A stretch of 38,492 bases of DNA from Limisphaerales bacterium (lineage in GTDB: Bacteria > Verrucomicrobiota > Verrucomicrobiia > Limisphaerales > UBA11358). This document shows, in pieces, positions 8,936 to 34,777 of this stretch; within the stretch, counting starts at the first letter, position 1; the number at the start of each line of letters is the position of its first letter. The notes below the pieces were generated by a model, which was given only the letters and a program-made list of their open reading frames with translations, did no database searches and was not told the DNA's origin. The stretch covers positions 1,558 through 40,049 of the forward strand of contig PLYV01000139.1 of assembly GCA_003151855.1 (NCBI GenBank), read 5' to 3'. The translations under genes were made by a program, and so were the position numbers.

Positions 8936-11085
8936 TTATTTGGCAGCGCTGATCACTGGCGCGGTTGGCGGCGCGGACTTGATGTCCGTGCCGAGCCGTT
9001 GCAGATAGGCGATGAGGCCGATGATTTCCTTGTCCGCGTCGCAGTTGACCGAACCCTGCTTCAGGTTCGCCACCACTTTCGCAGCCTGTTCATCGAAGTC
9101 CTTTTGCGCCGGGCCGTTTTCGTAACCGGCGGGATACGGCACCCCGACTCGGCGCAGCGCGCCGAGCCGCGCGGGCAGCGATTCCTTGTCCAGCTTCTGC
9201 GTCAGTAGCCACGAATAGCGCGGCATGATGGAACCGGGCGAGGTCGCACGCGGGTCGTCCATGTGGTTGAAATGCCACGCGTCGGGATAGCGTCCGCCTT
9301 CGCGCGCGAGATCCGGGCCTTTGCGCTCGGAACCCCACAGGAACGGATGGTCATAGACAAATTCGCCGGCCTTGGAGTATTCGCCGTAGCGCTCGGTCTC
9401 GGAACGGAACGGACGGATCATCTGCGAATGACAGCCGAGGCAGCCTTCGCGGATGTAGATGTCGCGGCCGAGCACTTCCAGCGGCGTGTAAGGATGCACG
9501 CTGGCGATGGTCGGGACGTTTGCCTTGATGAGGAACATCGGGATAATTTCCACCAGGCCGCCGATGAGCACCGCCACGACGGCGAGCGCGGTGAAGAACA
9601 TCGGCTTGCCTTCGAGCATCCGATGGAAGGTTGACTTGCCGTGCGCTTCGGGAGCCTTTTCAATCGGCGCGGCCTGTGCCTCGGTGTCCGGTTCAAATTT
9701 GCCGGCCTTCGCGGTGCGATACAAATTGTAGGCCATCATCAAAACGCCGGCGATGTAGAGCGTGCCGCCGACCGCGCGGAGTTTGAACATCGGCACCACC
9801 TGCACGATGGTTTCGAGAAAGTTCGGATATTGCAGGAAGCCGTCCTTGGTGAACTGCTTCCACATCAGCCCTTCCGTGACGCCGGCGACGTAAATCGGGA
9901 TGATGTAAAACACCATGCCCAACATGCCGAGCCAGAAATGGTAATTCGCCAGCTTGTTCGACCAGAGCTTGGTGTTGTAAAGCTTCGGGAACAGATAATA
10001 CAACATCGAGAACGTCAGGAAGCCGTTCCAGCCGAGCGCGCCGCCGTGCGCGTGGGCAATCGTCCAGTCGGTGTAATGCGTCAGGCCGTTGACCGATTTG
10101 ATGGACATCAGCGGGCCTTCCAGCGTCGCCATGCCATAAGCCGTGACGGCGGCCACCATGAATTTCAGCATCGGGTCCGACCGCACTTTGTCCCAGGCGC
10201 CGCGCAGCGTGAGCAGGCCGTTCAACATGCCGCCCCAGCTCGGCGCGATGAGCATCAGCGAGAACACCATGCCCAGCGACTGCGCCCAATCCGGCAGCGC
10301 CGTGTAAAGCAGATGATGCGGGCCGGCCCAGATGTAAAGAAACACCAGCGCCCAAAAATGGATGATCGAAAGCCGGTAACTGAAAAGATCGGACGGTTCG
10401 CCGCCTTCGGCAGAAAATAATACATCAAACCGAGATACGGCGTCGTCAGGAAGAAGGCGACGGCGTTGTGACCATACCACCATTGCACCAGCGCGTCCTG
10501 CACGCCAGCATACATCGAATAGCTCTTCAGCGGGCTCCACGGCATCTCCATCGAGTTGGTGATGTGCAGCACCGCGATCGTGACGGCGGTGGCGATGTAA
10601 AACCAGATGGCGACGTAGAGGTGTTTCTCGCGGCGCTTGATGATCGTGCCGAACAAATTCACTGTGAACGCCACCCACACCACCGCGATGGCGATGTCAA
10701 TCGGCCATTCGAGTTCCGCATATTCCTTGCTCGTGGTGAAACCCAGCGGCAATGTCACCGCCGCGCTGACGATGATGAGTTGCCAGCCCCAGAAATTGAA
10801 CCAGCTTAAAAAATCGCTGAACATCCGCGCCTTGCACAGCCGTTGCAGCGAATAGTAAATGCCCATGAACATGCCGTTGCCGACGAAGGCGAAGATGACG
10901 GCGTTCGTATGCAGCGGGCGGATGCGCCCGAACGTGATGAACTGAAGGTTGAGGTTCGCGCCGGGATAAAATAGCTCCACCGCCGCGAGCAGGCCGGCCA
11001 GCATGCCGACGACGCCCCAGATGACGGTGGCGATGGCGAAGGCCCGCACGATGCGATTGTCGTATTTGAAGGTTTCTACGTTCAT
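8936..11085 (-). pseudogene. ccoNO: Fused CcoNO cbb3 oxidase subunits I and II, interrupted by a frameshift
   Basis: CcoN part (from 11085): haem-copper oxidase core with RPLHTNAVIFAF (haem b His), VQWWYGHNAVAFFLTTPYLG and WAGPHHLLYTALPDW (CuB His ligands), and HYTDWTIAHAHGGALGWNGF (haem ligands). CcoO part: a membrane helix, then GCLGCHS (haem c) and IMPRYSWLL with the axial Met. The reading frame breaks near codon 233. The first frame ends ...YYFLPKAANRPIF and goes astray, while the next frame resumes SYRLSIIHFWAL, exactly where CcoN proteins read RP-x-x-SYRLS. The break lies at the four A's at 10383-10386 (plus strand). The span of 2150 bases is two more than a multiple of three: two extra bases or one missing. 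Everything else is intact, so a sequencing or assembly error is quite possible and the gene may be functional. Fused ccoNO is known in other phyla. Confidence 0.9.
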
Positions 11086-16440: not shown

Positions 16441-18294
16441 ATGAAAATCCGGTCATTGCTCCCCATCAGCCTCGTCCTCCTCTTGCTGTGCGACTGGAAC
16501 ACCGCCGTGGCGCAGTCCAATCCAAATGCGTATCTGTTCACCTCCTTCCGAGACAACGGTGACGGCCTGCATCTGGCCTGGAGCCGCGACGCCTATCATT
16601 GGACGGACTTTGACCGCGTCTTTCTGAAGCCGGCGGTCGGGAGCAGGCTGTTCCGCGACGCGCACATTCTTCAGGGGCCGGACGGCGTGTTCCGCATGGT
16701 CTGGACGACCGGCTGGAATGACAAGGGCATCGGCTACGCGTCCTCGACCAATCTCGTGGACTGGTCGGAGCAGAAATATCTGCCGTTCATGGAAAGCACG
16801 CCGGGCACGAAAAACTGCTGGGCGCCGGAGACGTTTTACGACGCGGAGAACCAGCAATACATCATCTACTGGTCGTCGGATGTGGCCGGGCGTTTCCCGG
16901 AAACCGTTTCGCCGAACCACATGAACAACCGCGCCTATTATGTCGTGACGAAGGATTTCAACACGTTCAGCGAACCGAAAGTGCTGTTCGATCCAGGCTT
17001 CGACAACATTGATTCCACGATGATCGCAGCCGGCGGCAAGTTCAGGCTCGTCCTCAAGCAGGGCGATGAGCAGGCGCAGGGCAAATGGGGGCCGATCCAC
17101 GCCGCCGTGGCCGATCATCCGCTGGGGCCTTACCAGCTCCAGCCGCAACCGCTCGTCACCGAGCGCGCGGAAGGGCCGACGCTCATCACGATTGGCGGTA
17201 AAACTTTGCTCTATGTGGATTTCTATGTCGGCGGCCATTACGGTGCCTACGAAAGCAGCGACTGGAAAGTCTGGACGGATGTTTCCGCCAAAACCAAACC
17301 CATTGACGGCCAGCGCCACGGCACGGTTTTCTCCGTCGCGCCGAAGGTGCTGGAAAAATTGCTGCATCTGGATGACGCCGCCATCGCCGCCGTGCCCAAG
17401 CCGATTCTTGACGGCTTCACCGCCGACCCGGCCATCCGCGTCTTCGGCGACACCTACTACGTTTATCCCACGTCCGACAAACCGGAATGGATGACCACCG
17501 ACTTCTCCGTCTGGTCTTCCAAAAACCTCGTGAACTGGAAGAAGGAAGGCATGATCCTCGACGTCACCAAGGATTTGAAATGGGCGAACATCCGCGCCTG
17601 GGCGCCGGACTGCGTGACGCGGAACGGGAAATTTTATTTCTACTTCTGCGCCGACGGGAAGATCGGCATCGGCACGGCGGACAAACCCACCGGGCCATTC
17701 GTGGATGCGCTTGGCCAGCCGCTCGTCCAGAAGACCGACAAGATTCACACCTACACGATTGACCCGTATCCGTTCATTGACGACGACGGCCAGGCGTATC
17801 TTTATTTCGGCAACGGCACGCTCACCGTCCTCAAGCTCAAGCCCGACATGATTTCGTTCGACGGCGACCCGGCGACCATCCCGCTCAAGGAATTCCGCGA
17901 AGGCATCGTCGTCTTCAAGCGGCTCGGCAAATATTATTTCATGTGGTCCATTGACGATGCGCGCAGCGATGATTACCGCATCGGCTATGGCATTTCGGAT
18001 TCGCCTTACGGCCCGGTCACCTCGCCGGCCAACAATTTCATCGTGCTCCACAAACACGGGTTGGTGAAAGGCACCGGCCATCACAGCGTGGTGAATGTGC
18101 CCGGCACCGACCGCTGGTATGTGGCGTATCATCGCCACGCGATCCCCGGCGGCGGCGGCTACAAACGCGAAACGTGCCTCGTCAAAATGGAGTTCAACCC
18201 CGACGGCACCATCAAGCCGATGGACCCGATGATTCCCGCGTTCACGCCCGGCTCCGTCGGCGAACCCGTCGTCAACGGCAAGGGCCGGCCCTGA
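16441..18294 (+). CDS. Secreted protein with two GH43-type beta-propeller domains
   Basis: A signal peptide (MKIRSLLPISLVLLLLCDWN, cleavage near AVAQS) precedes two five-bladed propeller domains. The first (about 28-310) has RDAHIL with a candidate base Asp73 and a later RAEGPTLI acid candidate. The second (about 316-610) is a clear glycoside hydrolase family 43 unit with the full triad: Asp329 in TADPAIR, Asp441 in IDPYPF and Glu487 in REGIVVFK. GH43 enzymes release arabinose or xylose from arabinans and arabinoxylans; the exact substrate cannot be read here. The gene converges with the rhamnogalacturonan lyase-like gene with only 32 bp between stops, which suggests a shared role in pectin breakdown. 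Confidence 0.88.
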   Translation: MKIRSLLPISLVLLLLCDWNTAVAQSNPNAYLFTSFRDNGDGLHLAWSRDAYHWTDFDRVFLKPAVGSRLFRDAHILQGPDGVFRMVWTTGWNDKGIGYASSTNLVDWSEQKYLPFMESTPGTKNCWAPETFYDAENQQYIIYWSSDVAGRFPETVSPNHMNNRAYYVVTKDFNTFSEPKVLFDPGFDNIDSTMIAAGGKFRLVLKQGDEQAQGKWGPIHAAVADHPLGPYQLQPQPLVTERAEGPTLITIGGKTLLYVDFYVGGHYGAYESSDWKVWTDVSAKTKPIDGQRHGTVFSVAPKVLEKLLHLDDAAIAAVPKPILDGFTADPAIRVFGDTYYVYPTSDKPEWMTTDFSVWSSKNLVNWKKEGMILDVTKDLKWANIRAWAPDCVTRNGKFYFYFCADGKIGIGTADKPTGPFVDALGQPLVQKTDKIHTYTIDPYPFIDDDGQAYLYFGNGTLTVLKLKPDMISFDGDPATIPLKEFREGIVVFKRLGKYYFMWSIDDARSDDYRIGYGISDSPYGPVTSPANNFIVLHKHGLVKGTGHHSVVNVPGTDRWYVAYHRHAIPGGGGYKRETCLVKMEFNPDGTIKPMDPMIPAFTPGSVGEPVVNGKGRP

Positions 18295-18326: not shown

Positions 18327-21300
18327 TTACGGATAGACGAGGCGGAAAAAGGCACTGGGGTTGGCCAGAATGATGGGAATAATCGATTGATTGCTGTTGG
18401 TGGAGCCGGTCACGGTCACCCAATTTGTGCCCAACCCCTGCCCCAGCGAATTAGTCTGCATCTGCAATCGCCAGCCCGTGTGGTCGGCGGGCCATGACAA
18501 AGTCAGGTTGGTGCCGCTCACGGCAAAAACAAGGTTCGTCGGCACGAGCGAAACCATGCTGACCACGGCGATGGTTCCGTTTACCGCCAGGGTGTTGTTC
18601 CACGCCAGACCGCTGCCCAACGCAGGCAAATTGGTGGCGGCAAAGGTGCCGCCATAGCTCGAGGCGCTGAACAATTGGAACGAATCACCGGCCTGCAACG
18701 GACCGCCGACATTCGTCACGGTCAGCGTGCCGCCGAAGTTCAGCGTGCCGCTGCTCAGAACAAGTTTGTCCACCGCAGGCGCGTTCGTTCGATTGATTTC
18801 CATCAAGGTCTTCCCACTCAAGACGGGGGCGGTCCCGAACGTCAACGTCCCGATCGAGGCACCGGGGGCAAGCGTGCCCAGAATGGTCGTCGCCCCGGTC
18901 ACCGTGCCATTGCCTTGGAGCGTCTGGCTTGCGCCGAGCACAAATGATGAAGCCATGCCGGTGACGTTGAGGGTCGCCCCATTGCTGATCGAAATGCTGG
19001 TTGAACTGGCGATGGAACTGCCGCCGCCCAACGCGAACGCCCCGCCGGTGATGATGGTCGGGCCGGTGTAAGTGTTCGCGTTGGTCAAGGTCAACGTGCC
19101 GCTGCCGCTCTTGGTGAGACCGCCGTCAACGGCATTATCGCCCGCGACACTGCTGTGAACCAGCGCCTGGCCGATGGTGATGTTAAAGTTTGCGGTGTCG
19201 ATGATCGCGCCGCCGTTCCGCACGTTGGCGACGGCGTTGCCGGTGCCGAGATACATGAAGGCCGGGCTGCTGCCGTTCGGTTTGAGCGTGCCGCCATTGA
19301 AGTTGAAAATCCGCGCGGGTGTGGCTGAGGAAGAAAGCACTTGGGGCAAAATCAGCGTGCCGCCATCAAGGTTGTAAGTATTTCTCGCGGTGGCCGCGCC
19401 GGCGTAGGCAAGGTCGAGAACGCCCGCGCCGCCGACCGTCGAACCGTTGTCACTGTAAAACGTGACCGTGCCGCCGCTCTGATTAACCGCGTTGGTGCCG
19501 CCACCGCCGGCAGTGGTGAACCGGATGGCCGTATTGTTCCACAAATTCAGCGAGCCGTTGTTGGTGAGGTTCAACTGGCCCTGCACCGTGTCGTATTGCC
19601 CAAGGATCAACCATCGTTGTCCCGTTGTGCCGACGTTCACCACGCCGCCGCCAATCGTCATCGTGCCGGTGCTGGCACCTCCGAGCCCGACAACCAGGTC
19701 GCCAGCAGAATTAAAAGTGCCGCCGTTGACGTTGAATGTGCCAGCTTCAGTATTTCCCGCCGCCGTGCTGCGCGCGATCGCCGTGACGCCGCTGCCGGTG
19801 GTGCTGATCGAGCCGCCATTCAGGTTGACCGTTCCACTGCCGGAAACATAGCCGACATCCAGCGCGCCGCCAAAATTGACTGCGCTGGAGTCGTTGACGT
19901 TGAGCACGCCATTGCCGCCAGCGCCGATGCGATGCGCACCGGTGCCGGACGCCACAACTTGCGCCGAGCTGCTCAAGGTCATCGTCATGTCCGAGCCGGC
20001 GGACTCGCCGACGTAAAACGTGCCATTGCCGGCGACCGTGAAGGACGACGTGCCATTCAGCGAGATCAAACCTTTCGGCAGATTGGCTGCGTTGCCGCCG
20101 TTAAATCCGGCGCTGAAGTTGGCAACGGAGATGACCGCGGCATTACTGGCAACCAGATCCGAAGAAACGCCGCCCACGCCGTTGCCGCGACCGAGGGAGA
20201 GCCAGGTCGCAACGTTCAGCCTGGCATTATCCACGACAATTTTGGCGTCATTACCCGCGCCGCCATTGGCCACCACCCCGCCGACGACCAGTTCGCCGTT
20301 CACGTAGTTGCTGCTGCCATTGTTGAACGTGAGCGTGCCGGCCTGGGCGATGAGCGGGCCGCTAAACCCGCCCGAGGATGCCTGCGTCAAATCCCAGGTG
20401 GCGTTGGTTGCGACCGTCAACCCGCCGCTGCCTTGTTTGAACAAGGAACCGCTGCCCGAGATCGGGCCGCTGAGAACCGTGTTCGTCGCACCGATGACCG
20501 TGAGCAGGTTGCCGGCTTTGTTCAGGCTGTTGCTGAGAATCAGGTTTCCCGCCGCAGCATTCAGGGTTACGGCCGCGCCTAGCAAAATTGGCACGTTCAA
20601 GGTTTGCGCGTTGGTGGAATTGTTCGTCATCCCGCCAGCCATGGTCAGCGTGCTGGCATTGGCGGTGCCGAGGTTGAAACTGCTGGCGTGGTTGCTGAAG
20701 GTCAGGCCGCTGACGCTGAAATTGGCATCCATGCCGGGCGTTGTCCGGGTGCTGCCGGCAAAAATGAGACTGTCTCCGGACGTTGACGGAACAAAGCCGC
20801 CATACCAATTCAAGCCGGTCGTCCAGTTATTGTCTCCGCCGCCGCCAGTCCAGATCGGAGCCGGGATGACCACGACCGCTTCCGCAGAATTGATGCCCGC
20901 GCCGACGGTGTCCACCGCGGCCACGACATAATAATAGGTGGCGCCAGAAATGACGCTGGTGTCGGAATAATTGGTCGCGGTCAGGCCGCTCGCAATCGTG
21001 GTGTAAGGCCCGCCGCTGCTCGTCGAGCGCAGCACGCTGTAATCAACCGCCCCCGGCGCGGCATTCCATTTCAGGTTGACCTGATTTGCCGCCACCACCG
21101 TGACGGTGAAATTCGTCGGCGCAAACGGCGGCGACGAGACCAGTGCGGAAATTTGCGACGCGCTCAAGGCGCCGTTGTAAATGCGGAAGTCATCCACGCG
21201 CCCGTTGAGATACGGATCGGACCACTGGGATTTGCCGAGGTAATTTTGCAGCGTCGGATTCGAGCCAAGCGGCTGGCTCAAATCGGAGGGCTTTAGCGTC

Positions 21301-23699
21301 ATGGCGTTGTTTGTGCCGACGGCGACGCCGTCCACATAAAGAATTCCCACCGAACCTTGGTGGGTCACCGTGACGTGATGCCAGCCGGTTGGCAGGGCGC
21401 TCGGGCCGTTGATCTGTTGCTCACCGGCACTGGATCCGACTGTGATCGCAAACCGGATCGTTCCGCTGCCGCTGGTGGCGCGTGGCGTCAGCATCATGTA
21501 GGCGGTGGTGCTGTTGCCGAAATCAAAAATTCGCGAAAAAGTGCTCACGGAGGTTTGATTAACCCACGCGGCGATGGTGAAGTCGCTTAATCCGCTGACG
21601 ACGCCGGCGGGCAGGCTGACGTAATTGCTCGTGCCGTTGAAGCTGGTCGCGCTGCCGTATTTGCCCGTGTTCCAGCCGGCGCCATTGAGCAGCGTGCCGT
21701 CCCAGCCGTTGCCCGTGGCGTCAGCGGCGTTCGTGCCGCTGGTTTCATCGAACGGCAGATACGCCATCAGCGCCGGTTCAATTCCGGCGGCGACTTCTAA
21801 GCTGTTGGTGCTTTCGCCCGCCGAGTTGGTGGACGTGATCACATAGTAATAGCGCGTGGCCGCCACGAGGTTGGTGTCGTTGAAGCTGGCGACGACGTTG
21901 GTGGCGATGGCGGTGTAAGGCCCGCCGTGCGTCGTCGAGCGTTTGATCTTGTAACCGACCGCGTTGAACACCGGCGTCCAGGACAGGCTCACTTGCGAAG
22001 GGTTGAACGAGGCGACGATGTTTGACGGCGGCAGCGGCGCGCTGGGCGTGCCGTCCATTTGCACACAATCGTAAACCCAGCCGGCGCTCAACCAGCCACC
22101 CAGATCACCGGAACCGCTGATGACACCGATATACAGGACGTTTTGGCCGGTGACGAATGCGCTGGCCGGCACGCTGTAGGAGTAAAGCGTGTTGTTGCCG
22201 CGATATGAACCGGTGGTAAAAGTGCGCGAATTCGGTTCGTTGGGCGCGGCTTGACCAGTCGAGGTCCAACTGTTGACGGTGATGTTGGGGCGGCCGCCGT
22301 TGTAGTCGGTGGTCATGCCGATGCGGACCGTGTGAGCCACGGCGGCCTGGGCGGCGGTGAGATTGAAGCGGATGGTGAGCGTGCCGTTTTCCTGCCGCGC
22401 CTGGATGCAGGGAAACTGCGTCGTCGGGTTGTTTTCCACCGTGAAATCAGTGGTGGCCCAACTGCTCATTCGCACGTCGGAGGGATGCATGTAGGTCATC
22501 TTGTCGGCGTTGAGAAAGCCCGCGGGCGTGCCGTCCCATTCGCCAAATTTGAAGACGAAGGTGGGATTGGCCTCGGCCGAGGCCAGGTTCACCGTGTTCG
22601 TGACGCCCGCGCTCACCGTGGTCGTGGTGGCCGCCACGGCGTATTCCTGTTTGTAAAGCGTCACGTTGTAAGTGCCGGGAATCATCCGCGACGTGGTGTA
22701 AACGCCGTTCGTCGCGATTGCCCAATATTGCGCATTGGTGTTGGCGAAGCCGACCACGGTTTGGAACCCGTCCGGCACGCCGGTGACCGTGCCGGTGACC
22801 ACGCCGCGATTGGTGGCGGCAACCCAGCCGATGAGGTTCAAGCCGGCAGTTTCCAGCCAGAAATTATCCAGGGGCGCGGCGGGAATCTGACCATTGTTGA
22901 ACACGAGGGTGTAGGGACCATTCAAAATGTTGAGACGAAACGCTTCGGTCTGGTTTTCCCCATAATTGACGATTTCGTAAATTTCCTGATCCCCCGAGTC
23001 TTGGTTGATCAGGCAGCGGAAAAACGGGCCGCCCGAACCGCCTTCCTGCGAGTCGCGCATCATGAACACGCCCACGCCGCTGCCGGTCGCCCCGGTGCAA
23101 AACCAGTCGAGCAGGCGATGATTGGAATAATGCTTCGAGCGCGTCTCGCCATCCGGCATGCCGAAAATGTCGGATGACTCCACCGTGTAAGTCGTCGTCG
23201 TATTGTCCGACGGCCGCGGACCATTGGGCAGCAGGCTTTGGTTGGCGCGCACGATGTAGCGGCACAGCCCGCCGCCCGTGACCGGTTCGACGTTGAACCA
23301 CGTGGCCATGTAGATGTGCGGATAACCATTCCGCGCGATGTAGTAATGAACAAGATTGGCCGCCGTGCAGGTGACGACGATGTAATTGGCGTTCACCACC
23401 TGGGCGGTGACGGTGACGTTGTTATTGCTGTAAGCGAGAAAATCCATCCCGGAGTTGATTTGAGAACCTTTGCTTTGGTCCTGATATTCGACCCCGTTAT
23501 AGATCAGGCTCATGAGGTCGCCCACCTTTTGCTGGTTGTTGATGGTGGCAAGGCGCACCTTGAAGACCAGCCCCGCCCCGGTGTCCACGGCAAAATTATC
23601 CGAGTTGGTGGTTAGGCCAAACGCCCCCAAGGCGTGGCTGGGAATTGCCAGCGAAACAATGATCCCAAAAATAACGCCGAAGCAATGCGTCCAGCGCAT
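18327..23699 (-). CDS. Giant secreted PL4 rhamnogalacturonan lyase-like protein with LamG, FN3 and autotransporter-type repeats
   Basis: Signal peptide MRWTHCFGVIFGIIVSLAIP with cleavage near SHALGA; the frame extends upstream to a TTG at 23792, so the start is uncertain. The first 550 mature residues follow the three-domain plan of polysaccharide lyase family 4. There is a catalytic beta-sandwich (GLTTNSDNFAVDTGAGLVF, ETRSKHYSNHR with a candidate catalytic Lys, SGGPFFR), a small FN3-like domain (GVVTGTVTGVPDG) and a carbohydrate-binding-like domain (FKFGEWDGTPAGF). Then come an FN3 domain, a LamG/concanavalin-like domain (LMAYLPFDETSG to NGRVDDFRIYNGAL), a second FN3, and about 750 residues of Gly/Ser/Asn-rich beta-helix repeats of the autotransporter-associated type. 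The C-terminus (LTLSWPADHTGWRLQMQTN ... FFRLVYP) is a module I associate with verrucomicrobial secreted proteins. Probably surface-attached and active on pectin rhamnogalacturonan I. Confidence 0.85.
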   Translation of the reverse strand: MRWTHCFGVIFGIIVSLAIPSHALGAFGLTTNSDNFAVDTGAGLVFKVRLATINNQQKVGDLMSLIYNGVEYQDQSKGSQINSGMDFLAYSNNNVTVTAQVVNANYIVVTCTAANLVHYYIARNGYPHIYMATWFNVEPVTGGGLCRYIVRANQSLLPNGPRPSDNTTTTYTVESSDIFGMPDGETRSKHYSNHRLLDWFCTGATGSGVGVFMMRDSQEGGSGGPFFRCLINQDSGDQEIYEIVNYGENQTEAFRLNILNGPYTLVFNNGQIPAAPLDNFWLETAGLNLIGWVAATNRGVVTGTVTGVPDGFQTVVGFANTNAQYWAIATNGVYTTSRMIPGTYNVTLYKQEYAVAATTTTVSAGVTNTVNLASAEANPTFVFKFGEWDGTPAGFLNADKMTYMHPSDVRMSSWATTDFTVENNPTTQFPCIQARQENGTLTIRFNLTAAQAAVAHTVRIGMTTDYNGGRPNITVNSWTSTGQAAPNEPNSRTFTTGSYRGNNTLYSYSVPASAFVTGQNVLYIGVISGSGDLGGWLSAGWVYDCVQMDGTPSAPLPPSNIVASFNPSQVSLSWTPVFNAVGYKIKRSTTHGGPYTAIATNVVASFNDTNLVAATRYYYVITSTNSAGESTNSLEVAAGIEPALMAYLPFDETSGTNAADATGNGWDGTLLNGAGWNTGKYGSATSFNGTSNYVSLPAGVVSGLSDFTIAAWVNQTSVSTFSRIFDFGNSTTAYMMLTPRATSGSGTIRFAITVGSSAGEQQINGPSALPTGWHHVTVTHQGSVGILYVDGVAVGTNNAMTLKPSDLSQPLGSNPTLQNYLGKSQWSDPYLNGRVDDFRIYNGALSASQISALVSSPPFAPTNFTVTVVAANQVNLKWNAAPGAVDYSVLRSTSSGGPYTTIASGLTATNYSDTSVISGATYYYVVAAVDTVGAGINSAEAVVVIPAPIWTGGGGDNNWTTGLNWYGGFVPSTSGDSLIFAGSTRTTPGMDANFSVSGLTFSNHASSFNLGTANASTLTMAGGMTNNSTNAQTLNVPILLGAAVTLNAAAGNLILSNSLNKAGNLLTVIGATNTVLSGPISGSGSLFKQGSGGLTVATNATWDLTQASSGGFSGPLIAQAGTLTFNNGSSNYVNGELVVGGVVANGGAGNDAKIVVDNARLNVATWLSLGRGNGVGGVSSDLVASNAAVISVANFSAGFNGGNAANLPKGLISLNGTSSFTVAGNGTFYVGESAGSDMTMTLSSSAQVVASGTGAHRIGAGGNGVLNVNDSSAVNFGGALDVGYVSGSGTVNLNGGSISTTGSGVTAIARSTAAGNTEAGTFNVNGGTFNSAGDLVVGLGGASTGTMTIGGGVVNVGTTGQRWLILGQYDTVQGQLNLTNNGSLNLWNNTAIRFTTAGGGGTNAVNQSGGTVTFYSDNGSTVGGAGVLDLAYAGAATARNTYNLDGGTLILPQVLSSSATPARIFNFNGGTLKPNGSSPAFMYLGTGNAVANVRNGGAIIDTANFNITIGQALVHSSVAGDNAVDGGLTKSGSGTLTLTNANTYTGPTIITGGAFALGGGSSIASSTSISISNGATLNVTGMASSFVLGASQTLQGNGTVTGATTILGTLAPGASIGTLTFGTAPVLSGKTLMEINRTNAPAVDKLVLSSGTLNFGGTLTVTNVGGPLQAGDSFQLFSASSYGGTFAATNLPALGSGLAWNNTLAVNGTIAVVSMVSLVPTNLVFAVSGTNLTLSWPADHTGWRLQMQTNSLGQGLGTNWVTVTGSTNSNQSIIPIILANPSAFFRLVYP

Positions 23700-23864
23700 C
23701 AAGGCTGAGCGGGGACTGGCGCAGCCATTGACAACAACCATCCTGCCGCAGCGGTTTTCATGTTCAGAGGTGATCAAGGTATTCACCACCAAACTACCTC
23801 ACGAAACGGCAATCCACCATCCACAGAACTGGTGATAAGGGCAAAATAAATCTTTGAGGAAACC

Positions 23865-33022: not shown

Positions 33023-34777
33023 ATGCGGGCAATTTTAATTTTTCTCTTCGCCACGTTCGCCCCCGGCGCGTTCGCCGGCGACCCCGCCGCGCCGGCGGAA
33101 CTTGCCGGCCAGACGTTCATCCACGACCCCTCCACCGTCATCCGCGACGGCAGCAATTATTTCGTCTTCGGCACCGGCCCGGGCATCCGCATCAAGACAT
33201 CCCCGGATTTGACCCGCTGGGAAAACGCCGGCAGCGTCTTCCGCCATCCGCCGGAGTGGACCCGTAAGGTGGTCCCAGGCAATTGGCCGCGTTTCCATTT
33301 TTCCGGCGACAGTTTTTGGGCACCGGACATCATCCGCGTGAACGGAAAATATTTCCTCTACTACTCCGTCTCCGCCTTTGGCAAGCAGACCTCCGCCATC
33401 GGCCTCGCGGAAATTGCCACCCTCAATCCGGCGGCGGAAAATCATGTCTGGATTGATGGCGGCACCGTCATCGCCTCAACCAAGGGCAGCGCGCTCAACA
33501 CCATCGACCCCAGCGCCTTTCTCGATCGCGACGGCAAACTCTGGCTCGCGTTCGGTTCCTACTGGCAGGGCATCTTCCTCACCGAGCTGAATCCGGCGAC
33601 CGGTTTGCGCGTCGCCACCAATTCCCCGCTGTTTCATCTTGCGTGGAACCACAGCATCGAGGCCGCCTGCCTGACGCGGCATGAAAATTATTATTATCTC
33701 TTCGTCAACTGGGGCGAATGTTGCAAGGGCACCAATAGCACCTACGAAGTCCGCGTGGGCCGCGCCGAGAAAATCACCGGCCCGTATCTCGACCGCACCG
33801 GCAAAGACCTCGCCGCCGGCGGCGGCTCGCTGTTTCTCGCGAGCCATGGACGGTTCATCGGCCCCGGCCACATCGGCATCGTGGACGACGGCCAGACTAA
33901 TGGCCCGACGCGGTTCAGTTATCATTACTATGACGCCGCCACGCAGGGCCGCTCACGGCTCGCGCTGGGAACGCTGGTTTGGACGGACGGCTGGCCGGTG
34001 GCGGTAAGCCAGGCGATGGACGATTGGCAACTGGTCTGGGCGGATGAATTCAACACCAACGGCGCGCCCAATCCCGCCAACTGGAACTTCGAGCGCGGCT
34101 TCGTGCGCAATCATGAACTCCAATGGTATCAGCCCGAAAATGCCTTCTGCACGAACGGCCTGCTCGTCATCGAGGCGCGCACGGAGCATAAGCCCAATCC
34201 GAATTACACCACGAACAGCGCCGACTGGCGGCAGGCGCGTCCGTGGATTGATTGCACTTCCGCCAGCCTCACGTCGCGACGGCTGCACGAGTTCAACTAT
34301 GGGAAGTTTGAAATGCGGGCGCGCATTGACACGCGGCCCGGAAGCTGGCCGGCGTTCTGGACGCTCGGTGCCAAGCGCGGCCTCCGCTGGCCGGCGTGCG
34401 GGGAGATTGACATCATGGAGTTTTACACCGGCACGGTGCTGGCGAACTTCGGCTGGCAGTTGAACGGCCAGACCAAATGGCTGGCGCAAAAGAAACCCGT
34501 CAAGGATTTGGGCGGCGAGGCGTGGGCGAAGGAATTCCATATCTGGACGATGGATTGGGAGACGAACCAGATTGACCTGCTCCTCGACGGCCAGTTGATG
34601 AACCACCTGAACCTCACCGACGCGGACAGCGCGGATCAAGGCAATCCGTTTCACCGCGCAGAATACCTCATCCTGAACCAAGCCATCGGCGGTGACTGTG
34701 GCGGCGATCCGGCGCACACGCCCTTCCCCATCCGCTACGAGATTGACTGGGTGCGCGTCTATCAGCACGCGAAGTAA
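33023..34777 (+). CDS. Secreted GH43-GH16 fusion glycoside hydrolase
   Basis: Signal peptide MRAILIFLFATFAPGAFAGD. Residues about 28-325 are a GH43 domain of the endo-arabinanase kind: Asp35 in FIHDPST, Asp162 in NTIDPSAFLD and Glu213 in HSIEAACLTRH form the expected triad, with SFWAPDIIRVNGKYFLYYS and SYWQGIFL also typical. Residues about 335-584 are a GH16 domain (LVWADEFNTNGAPNPANWNFE start, GSWPAFWTLG, then GEIDIMEF with nucleophile Glu461 and acid/base Glu466, and IRYEIDWVRVYQ at the end). So one chain carries an alpha-arabinan-cutting domain and a beta-glucan- or galactan-cutting domain, both with intact residues. A multi-substrate enzyme for plant or algal wall is likely; exact linkages are unknown. 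Confidence 0.92.
   Translation: MRAILIFLFATFAPGAFAGDPAAPAELAGQTFIHDPSTVIRDGSNYFVFGTGPGIRIKTSPDLTRWENAGSVFRHPPEWTRKVVPGNWPRFHFSGDSFWAPDIIRVNGKYFLYYSVSAFGKQTSAIGLAEIATLNPAAENHVWIDGGTVIASTKGSALNTIDPSAFLDRDGKLWLAFGSYWQGIFLTELNPATGLRVATNSPLFHLAWNHSIEAACLTRHENYYYLFVNWGECCKGTNSTYEVRVGRAEKITGPYLDRTGKDLAAGGGSLFLASHGRFIGPGHIGIVDDGQTNGPTRFSYHYYDAATQGRSRLALGTLVWTDGWPVAVSQAMDDWQLVWADEFNTNGAPNPANWNFERGFVRNHELQWYQPENAFCTNGLLVIEARTEHKPNPNYTTNSADWRQARPWIDCTSASLTSRRLHEFNYGKFEMRARIDTRPGSWPAFWTLGAKRGLRWPACGEIDIMEFYTGTVLANFGWQLNGQTKWLAQKKPVKDLGGEAWAKEFHIWTMDWETNQIDLLLDGQLMNHLNLTDADSADQGNPFHRAEYLILNQAIGGDCGGDPAHTPFPIRYEIDWVRVYQHAK

Follow-up and report, generated by a model that had tools for sequence, protein, structure and literature searches.

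A recurrent FN3-like module at the C-terminus of large secreted proteins from Limisphaerales: a candidate sorting or anchoring domain

How the Verrucomicrobiota of this lineage deliver giant polysaccharide-degrading enzymes past their outer membrane is a question for which we found no explanation. The question is raised by a genomic window of a Limisphaerales bacterium (the whole stretch of 38,492 nucleotides analysed here), where a long protein with a rhamnogalacturonan lyase domain ends in a small module of its own kind. In a preliminary description of this DNA, the module was singled out as a possible sorting signal, said to match a motif at the ends of many otherwise unrelated secreted proteins of the lineage and compared with type IX or PEP-CTERM tags. 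We followed the module through its own genome, through 59 relatives and through a sample of the phylum, and weighed what it might do at the end of such large proteins.

The host protein and its last 71 residues

The module lies on the minus strand, which the preliminary description leaves unsaid. The open frame at 18327-23792 (minus strand, 1821 aa) combines PL4 rhamnogalacturonan lyase, FN3, LamG and PATR domains. Reading of the translation suggests that the protein starts at Met32 of the frame, with a likely Sec signal peptide encoded at 23622..23699 (−). Pfam then places, on the same strand, the rhamnogalacturonan lyase domain RhgB_N (residues 58-318, 22839..23621, E 1.2e-67), PL4 domain II, or fn3_3 (residues 329-400, 22593..22808), the CBM-like PL4 domain III (residues 413-579, 22056..22556), an FN3 domain (residues 588-667, 21792..22031), a Laminin_G_3 domain (residues 719-882, 21147..21638) and a second FN3 domain (about residues 891-974, 20871..21122; Pfam fn3 matches two stretches). 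A passenger-associated-transport-repeat or PATR (Pfam PF12951, E 1.9e-9) occupies residues 1559-1585 (19038..19118, −) and is followed by what AlphaFold2 (AF2) and Foldseek indicate as the end of a beta-helix plus an autochaperone-like domain (residues 1588-1750, 18543..19031, −). The remaining 71 aa (residues 1751-1821, 18330..18542, −) constitute the FN3-like tail module, of the form that we call type A, and its terminal Pro adjoins the stop codon (18327..18329, −). The protein ends in LTLSWPADHTGWRLQMQTNSLGQGLGTNWVTVTGSTNSNQSIIPIILANPSAFFRLVYP before the stop, and the tail reads ...LTLSWPADHTGWRLQMQTN...NWVTV...AFFRLVYP*, a stretch that differs from the PATR and beta-helix upstream, as had been proposed.

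No Pfam or NCBIfam model matched the tail of this protein. Searches with 75 diverse tails at E ≤ 1 matched 12 Pfam and 10 NCBIfam families, none of which covers the tail; for the single sequence and the diverse set alike, no family model is known. Full-text searches on sorting and secretion in Verrucomicrobiota, Limisphaerales or Pedosphaera, in a library without most subscription journals and preprint servers, likewise listed no title or opening of an abstract that describes the tail.

Recurrence, position and subtypes

The single tail used as query found 31 places in its own genome (3.8 Mb, 69.7% complete) at E ≤ 0.01, and an 8-row profile found 36 at E ≤ 1, 33 of them ending 0-3 aa before a stop. 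The three exceptions comprise a probable chance match 13 aa before the stop (C136) and two proteins which, from labels read off their sequence, would be hydrolase-like (C310:17257) and multihaem-cytochrome-like (C203). Among the fetched loci, which overlap and where copies were counted as distinct by sequence, every one of the 127 type A copies reaches to 0-3 aa from the stop, when uniform placement would put about 1.7% within 5 aa of it. Moreover, the FxRL motif stands exactly three residues from the end in 105 of these copies and the terminal residue is Pro in 109. FN3 domains of the same frames were taken as a control, with one out of 62 lying within 5 aa of the stop; this control and the stop positions of type A rule out an artefact of chance or composition. 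One tail per protein was the case throughout the fetched frames, the sole double match being an FN3 domain at E 0.45. The recurrence right at the C-terminal end of secreted proteins with little else in common, as stated in the preliminary description, is thus borne out by both the own-genome matches and the type A copies.

Two further forms of the tail were recognised. Type A carries QTN and YP motifs as hallmarks, type B shows GY/GF..LQ..TNL and often ends in K, and type C, which emerged from the ends of those PATR proteins that carry neither a type A nor a type B tail, shows YxIQYTTNL...W...D......RFYR. Profile comparison with hhalign (probabilities of 99.6 for A versus B, 96.5 for C versus A and 98.6 for C versus B) argues that the three types form one superfamily. 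A 30-row A/B/C profile, which includes rows from some of the genomes later searched with it, detected 85 copies in the own genome at E ≤ 0.01. Partial or N-containing copies had been dropped before two other profiles (A2 and A3) were built and before tail identities were compared. Most of these copies (76 of 85) lie within 8 aa of the stop, and the remaining nine comprise one at 9 aa, one at 34 aa and seven internal ones. The copy at 34 aa probably results from a frameshift, since its close relatives end near there. Building a profile and listing the proteins that end in it had been recommended in the preliminary description, and both profiles return a list dominated by terminal copies. The same text had held that mid-protein occurrence would refute a sorting signal, and here the outcome is divided: the tight form has no such case among 127 copies, but in the wider superfamily eight of the 85 own-genome copies are separated from the stop by more than 9 aa. 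We count these mid-protein copies, one of them being the likely frameshift, against a sorting role, and because of them sorting is not proven.

Three type C tails of the own genome (C43:16950, C43:20567 and C38:1592) share an LGPPLP extension after the last strand, and a fourth relative (C201:7011) runs past that point as if frameshifted; these four copies are covered by loci L244, L235, L242 and L249.

With regard to distribution, the A/B profile was positive in 58 of the 59 relatives, with 1 to 86 copies each, and in 27 of 194 sampled Verrucomicrobiota genomes, a number that rises to 74 of 194 with the A/B/C profile (up to 30 candidates per genome were scored in these phylum scans). A scan of 84,980 species genomes with a type A pattern gave 108 confirmed loci, of which 80 were kept. 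By record title they belong to Verrucomicrobia, Limisphaerales or Pedosphaera MAGs, together with one Methylacidimicrobium and two labelled as 'bacterium' only, which fits the lineage-specific character attributed to the tight form. The only relative without an A/B tail is G235, a genome of the same order (2.6 Mb, 94% complete). Neither exosortase nor PEP-CTERM occurs in it, and it belongs to the four relatives with an autotransporter barrel over the cut-off.

Predicted fold and likeness to known C-terminal domains

An AF2 model of the tail based on the 75 diverse tails reached a pLDDT of 91.6 and contains five strands of at least three residues (5-9, 12-16, 25-29, 52-56 and 65-69). When the tail alone was given to Foldseek, FN3 domains took the top rows with weak E-values (0.05 and above), and VIA aligned the whole module with FN3-type domains at Z-scores up to 6.4 (65 residues, 2.6 A), values that, being below 8, may reflect just a common arrangement. 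The sequence relation with FN3 is also weak: hhalign gave P 0.0016 (35 columns) for types A+B and P 0.0052 (60 columns) for type C, with column-shuffled controls at 0.067 or higher, and the FN3 model PF00041 matched one of the 75 tails, at E 0.13. Altogether, the models point to an FN3-like beta-sandwich with the order and arrangement of strands A to F. The VIA alignments of the 71-residue model end near residue 72-78 of FN3 domains of ~90 residues and leave nothing for strand G, so of the seven strands A-G of FN3 the last one would be absent and the final strand of the tail (F in FN3 terms) would form an open edge. In at least two internal copies of the superfamily the next domain starts within about 10 residues of the last strand; these copies also seem to offer no space for a G strand, whose lack would therefore characterise the family as a whole and is nothing special to the terminus. 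The tail differs from FN3 (PF00041) in stopping before strand G, in its weak sequence relation and in being terminal rather than internal. A remnant of an autotransporter barrel, which we also considered, was rejected in view of the predicted FN3-like fold.

Conserved positions of the tail are W17, G23, T30, N31, W41, F65, R67, L68 and the terminal Pro, with R67 kept in 94%, F65 in 89% and the Pro in 89% of the rows that have a letter there. Following the FN3 pattern, and not coordinates, W17 and L68 would belong to the core, with F65 and R67 facing outward.

A C-terminal beta-sandwich brings to mind the type IX secretion system (T9SS), whose CTD is described as an Ig-like sandwich with the export signal in its last two strands and able to dimerise by C-terminal strand swapping (PMC4804311), and with conserved motifs that are reported as surface-exposed (PMC10202324). 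As in the type A CTD (PF18962/TIGR04183), a folded, Ig-superfamily-like beta-sandwich is predicted for the tail, which ends many unrelated Sec-exported proteins (the signal peptides being called by a home-made rule only), and the comparison with T9SS and PEP-CTERM tags in position and recurrence made at the outset was well founded, as seen from type A at the stop and from the 85 superfamily copies of one genome. However, the CTD has seven strands whereas the tail is predicted to be FN3-like without the G strand, the phylum is a different one and there is no match to a sequence model: PF18962, TIGR04183, PF13585 and TIGR04131 were matched by none of the 75 diverse tails in Pfam and NCBIfam at E ≤ 1. 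The CTD of RgpB did appear at rank 38 (E 0.58) in a Foldseek search with a longer model of 234 aa; it is not among the matches listed by VIA for the module alone, an absence that does not exclude likeness. As for the secretion machinery, SprA_N (PF14349) was found in 0 of 59 relatives and 0 of 194 genomes of the phylum, although the control genomes stayed silent too and absence is thus not proven.

PEP-CTERM is likewise described as a C-terminal homology region that occurs in many copies on diverse proteins with signal peptides (PMC1569441; PMC4960237), with 65 copies counted in Verrucomicrobium spinosum (PMC1569441). Both features are shared by the tail, but PEP-CTERM consists of a short PEP motif, a transmembrane helix and a basic cluster, whereas a folded domain is predicted here. 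The tail can be rejected as a PEP-CTERM tag on the basis of that fold and of PF07589, which is not among the Pfam matches of the 75 tails at E ≤ 1. Exosortase occurs in 56 of the 59 relatives, as does PEP-CTERM, and being near universal its distribution tells nothing. Among the matches listed, PEP-CTERM frames are under 500 aa, versus a median of 1070 aa for the frames with a C-terminal tail in the own genome, and the two seem to be parallel C-terminal systems split by the size of their cargo. That the tail is a true type IX CTD or an exosortase substrate working through a known system is a highly improbable reading, in spite of the shared sandwich fold, the distant RgpB match and the widespread exosortases: the family models were not among the matches, SprA_N failed to appear (as it did in the control), and the tail is predicted as folded and soluble while the PEP-CTERM of the same genomes sit on other, small frames.

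Upstream of the tail, the protein resembles type V autotransporters. The AF2 model of residues 1588-1821 (234 aa, pLDDT 92.4) comprises the beta-helix, the autochaperone-like part and the tail. For this model, Foldseek placed Ssp, Ag43, a beta-helix from a gut metagenome and the autochaperone of IcsA in its best rows (lowest E 4.5e-3). The protein thus has a likely signal peptide, a beta-helical passenger with PATR and an autochaperone-like region near its C-terminus, just as type V systems do. In classical autotransporters a beta-barrel comes next, whereas a small tail occupies the position of the barrel here. The translocator barrel PF03797 has no match in this protein and is absent from the own genome (the control was positive in E. 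coli and Caulobacter), and just four of the 59 relatives carry it over the cut-off; barrel and tails occur together in three relatives and are not mutually exclusive. Of the 25 PATR frames in the own genome (told apart by contig and frame length), 21 have a tail at their end. Among the other four, the end is not readable in two, the tail is internal in one, and no tail was detected in C188. The tail offers a reason for the barrel-less beta-helical passengers of this lineage.

These observations also feed the main rival explanation, in which the tail is a structural cap. As a stable mini-domain of FN3-like kind, it would close long beta-rich secreted proteins, help them to fold and shield them from exoproteases, with no machine to recognise it. 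The predicted fold is an ordinary FN3-like sandwich, a beta-helix often precedes the tail (16 of 29 and 26 of 42 tailed proteins surveyed have PATR), the 234-aa model puts the tail directly after the autochaperone-like domain, mid-protein cases exist and no partner has been found. On the other hand, a cap does not need the fixed spacing to the stop, the terminal Pro or the near-invariant Arg of the last strand, and many different domains accompany the tail. A cap specific to beta-helices is ruled out by the 13 of 29 own-genome tailed proteins without a PATR match. We regard the general form of this explanation as possible, if somewhat doubtful.

Cargo and a candidate role at the outer membrane

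The bodies that carry the tail were surveyed with Pfam. For 29 tailed proteins of the own genome, the families found were LamG and PATR (16 each), FN3 (8), alginate lyase (3), the C-terminal domain of arabinofuranosidase (2) and fucosidase, rhamnosidase, rhamnogalacturonan lyase and subtilase (1 each). In 42 proteins from the pattern-scan loci, the shorter ones of 71 eligible, we found PATR (26), Ig (14), LamG (10), GH76 (3), GH28 (1) and others. To judge from these families (alginate lyase, fucosidase, rhamnosidase, arabinofuranosidase, GH28, GH76, subtilase, LamG, Ig), the cargo appears extracellular in kind, and the cytoplasmic proteins that would have refuted a sorting signal did not turn up, with no cytoplasmic family among the Pfam families listed (25 of 37 and 25 of 34, respectively) for the 29 and 42 tailed proteins. 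Moreover, a home-made rule called a signal peptide in 87 of 103 tailed frames versus 154 of 434 other frames, which make a crude control; several of the 16 tailed frames that fail the rule seem to be broken, to contain runs of N or to start at a codon other than ATG.

Tails are also related beyond the bodies that carry them. We compared 4753 pairs of tailed proteins. In 2116 of them BLAST finds no match between the bodies at E ≤ 1, yet the tails show a median identity of 41.7%, a value that leans upward since the pattern-scan loci (80 of 108 kept) were picked by the type A pattern. Within the own genome only, type A tails on unrelated bodies have a median identity of 38.6%; the corresponding values are 29.6% in the preceding 150 aa and 27.8% when the tails are shuffled. 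FN3 domains of that genome reach a median of 46.7% (thinned set), versus which the tail is not unusually conserved, a point that we count against a sorting role. One pair of own-genome proteins (L025:1262-4438 and L027:1770-5774) has tails that are 79.5% identical on bodies without any BLAST match, as though a tail had passed from one gene to the other.

The nature of the cargo suggests another explanation, in which the tail would be an accessory ligand-binding domain (FN3/CBM32-like) for polysaccharide or cell wall that merely tends to stand last. Besides the mostly carbohydrate-active cargo, the tail profile weakly matches the domains of glucanase/chitosanase entries (48 positions, E 0.0013), which we take to be discoidin/CBM32 domains. 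Accessory binding modules, however, usually occur in tandem and at any position, and here there is one tail per protein, terminal in every type A copy, and found as well on a protein with a subtilase domain. We consider this explanation improbable.

The tail stands at the terminus, once per protein, on exported bodies that are unrelated to each other, with a fixed distance to the stop and a conserved strand that is probably exposed. These are traits of a folded C-terminal sorting domain, for which the T9SS CTD is the known example, and they favour a role in sorting or anchoring. We propose, with confidence that stands about midway, that the tail is a folded C-terminal sorting or anchoring domain which works like the T9SS CTD but is not one, and which probably marks its protein, much like an address label, for a machine of the outer membrane. 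No partner machine for the tail has been found, which we count against this proposal together with the points already mentioned. Proteins of this kind would first be exported by Sec, after which the tail would fold in the periplasm. A machine in the outer membrane could then recognise the exposed last strand, with its near-invariant F-[FY]-R-L, and the outward residues of the neighbouring strands, and would also read the free carboxyl end at a constant spacing, in most cases three residues past FxRL with Pro as the last. Finally, the machine would carry the cargo to the surface or anchor it there, and in beta-helical proteins the tail would take the place of the translocator barrel of a classical autotransporter.

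A more specific version of the proposal, which we put forward tentatively and hold to be rather unlikely in all its parts, is an outer-membrane secretion or anchoring system of Verrucomicrobiota, not yet described, with dozens of substrates per genome, most of them giant enzymes, that would be recognised through their strand-deficient FN3-like tail. Its machine would add a strand to the open edge and read the free carboxyl end, and it would have taken over from the autotransporter barrel, so that passengers with PATR and autochaperone travel barrel-less. Being abundant and lacking a database model, the tail flags likely cargo in one step and predicts a shared route for it, and the phylogenetic profile of its 74 positive genomes could be used to trace the machine, an approach that served for PEP-CTERM and EpsH as described in PMC1569441.

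Two other carbohydrate-active proteins of the window, the GH43 enzymes at 16441-18294 (+) and 33023-34777 (+), one of them with GH16, are without a tail, which indicates that the tail marks only a subset of such proteins and which we likewise count against the proposed role. Elsewhere in the window, at the frames 8936-10678 (−) and 10255-11085 (−), one frame fuses the C-terminal part of COX1 with FixO (a ccoN-ccoO fusion). The oxidase subunit may have its N-terminal part in another, overlapping frame, possibly through a frameshift.
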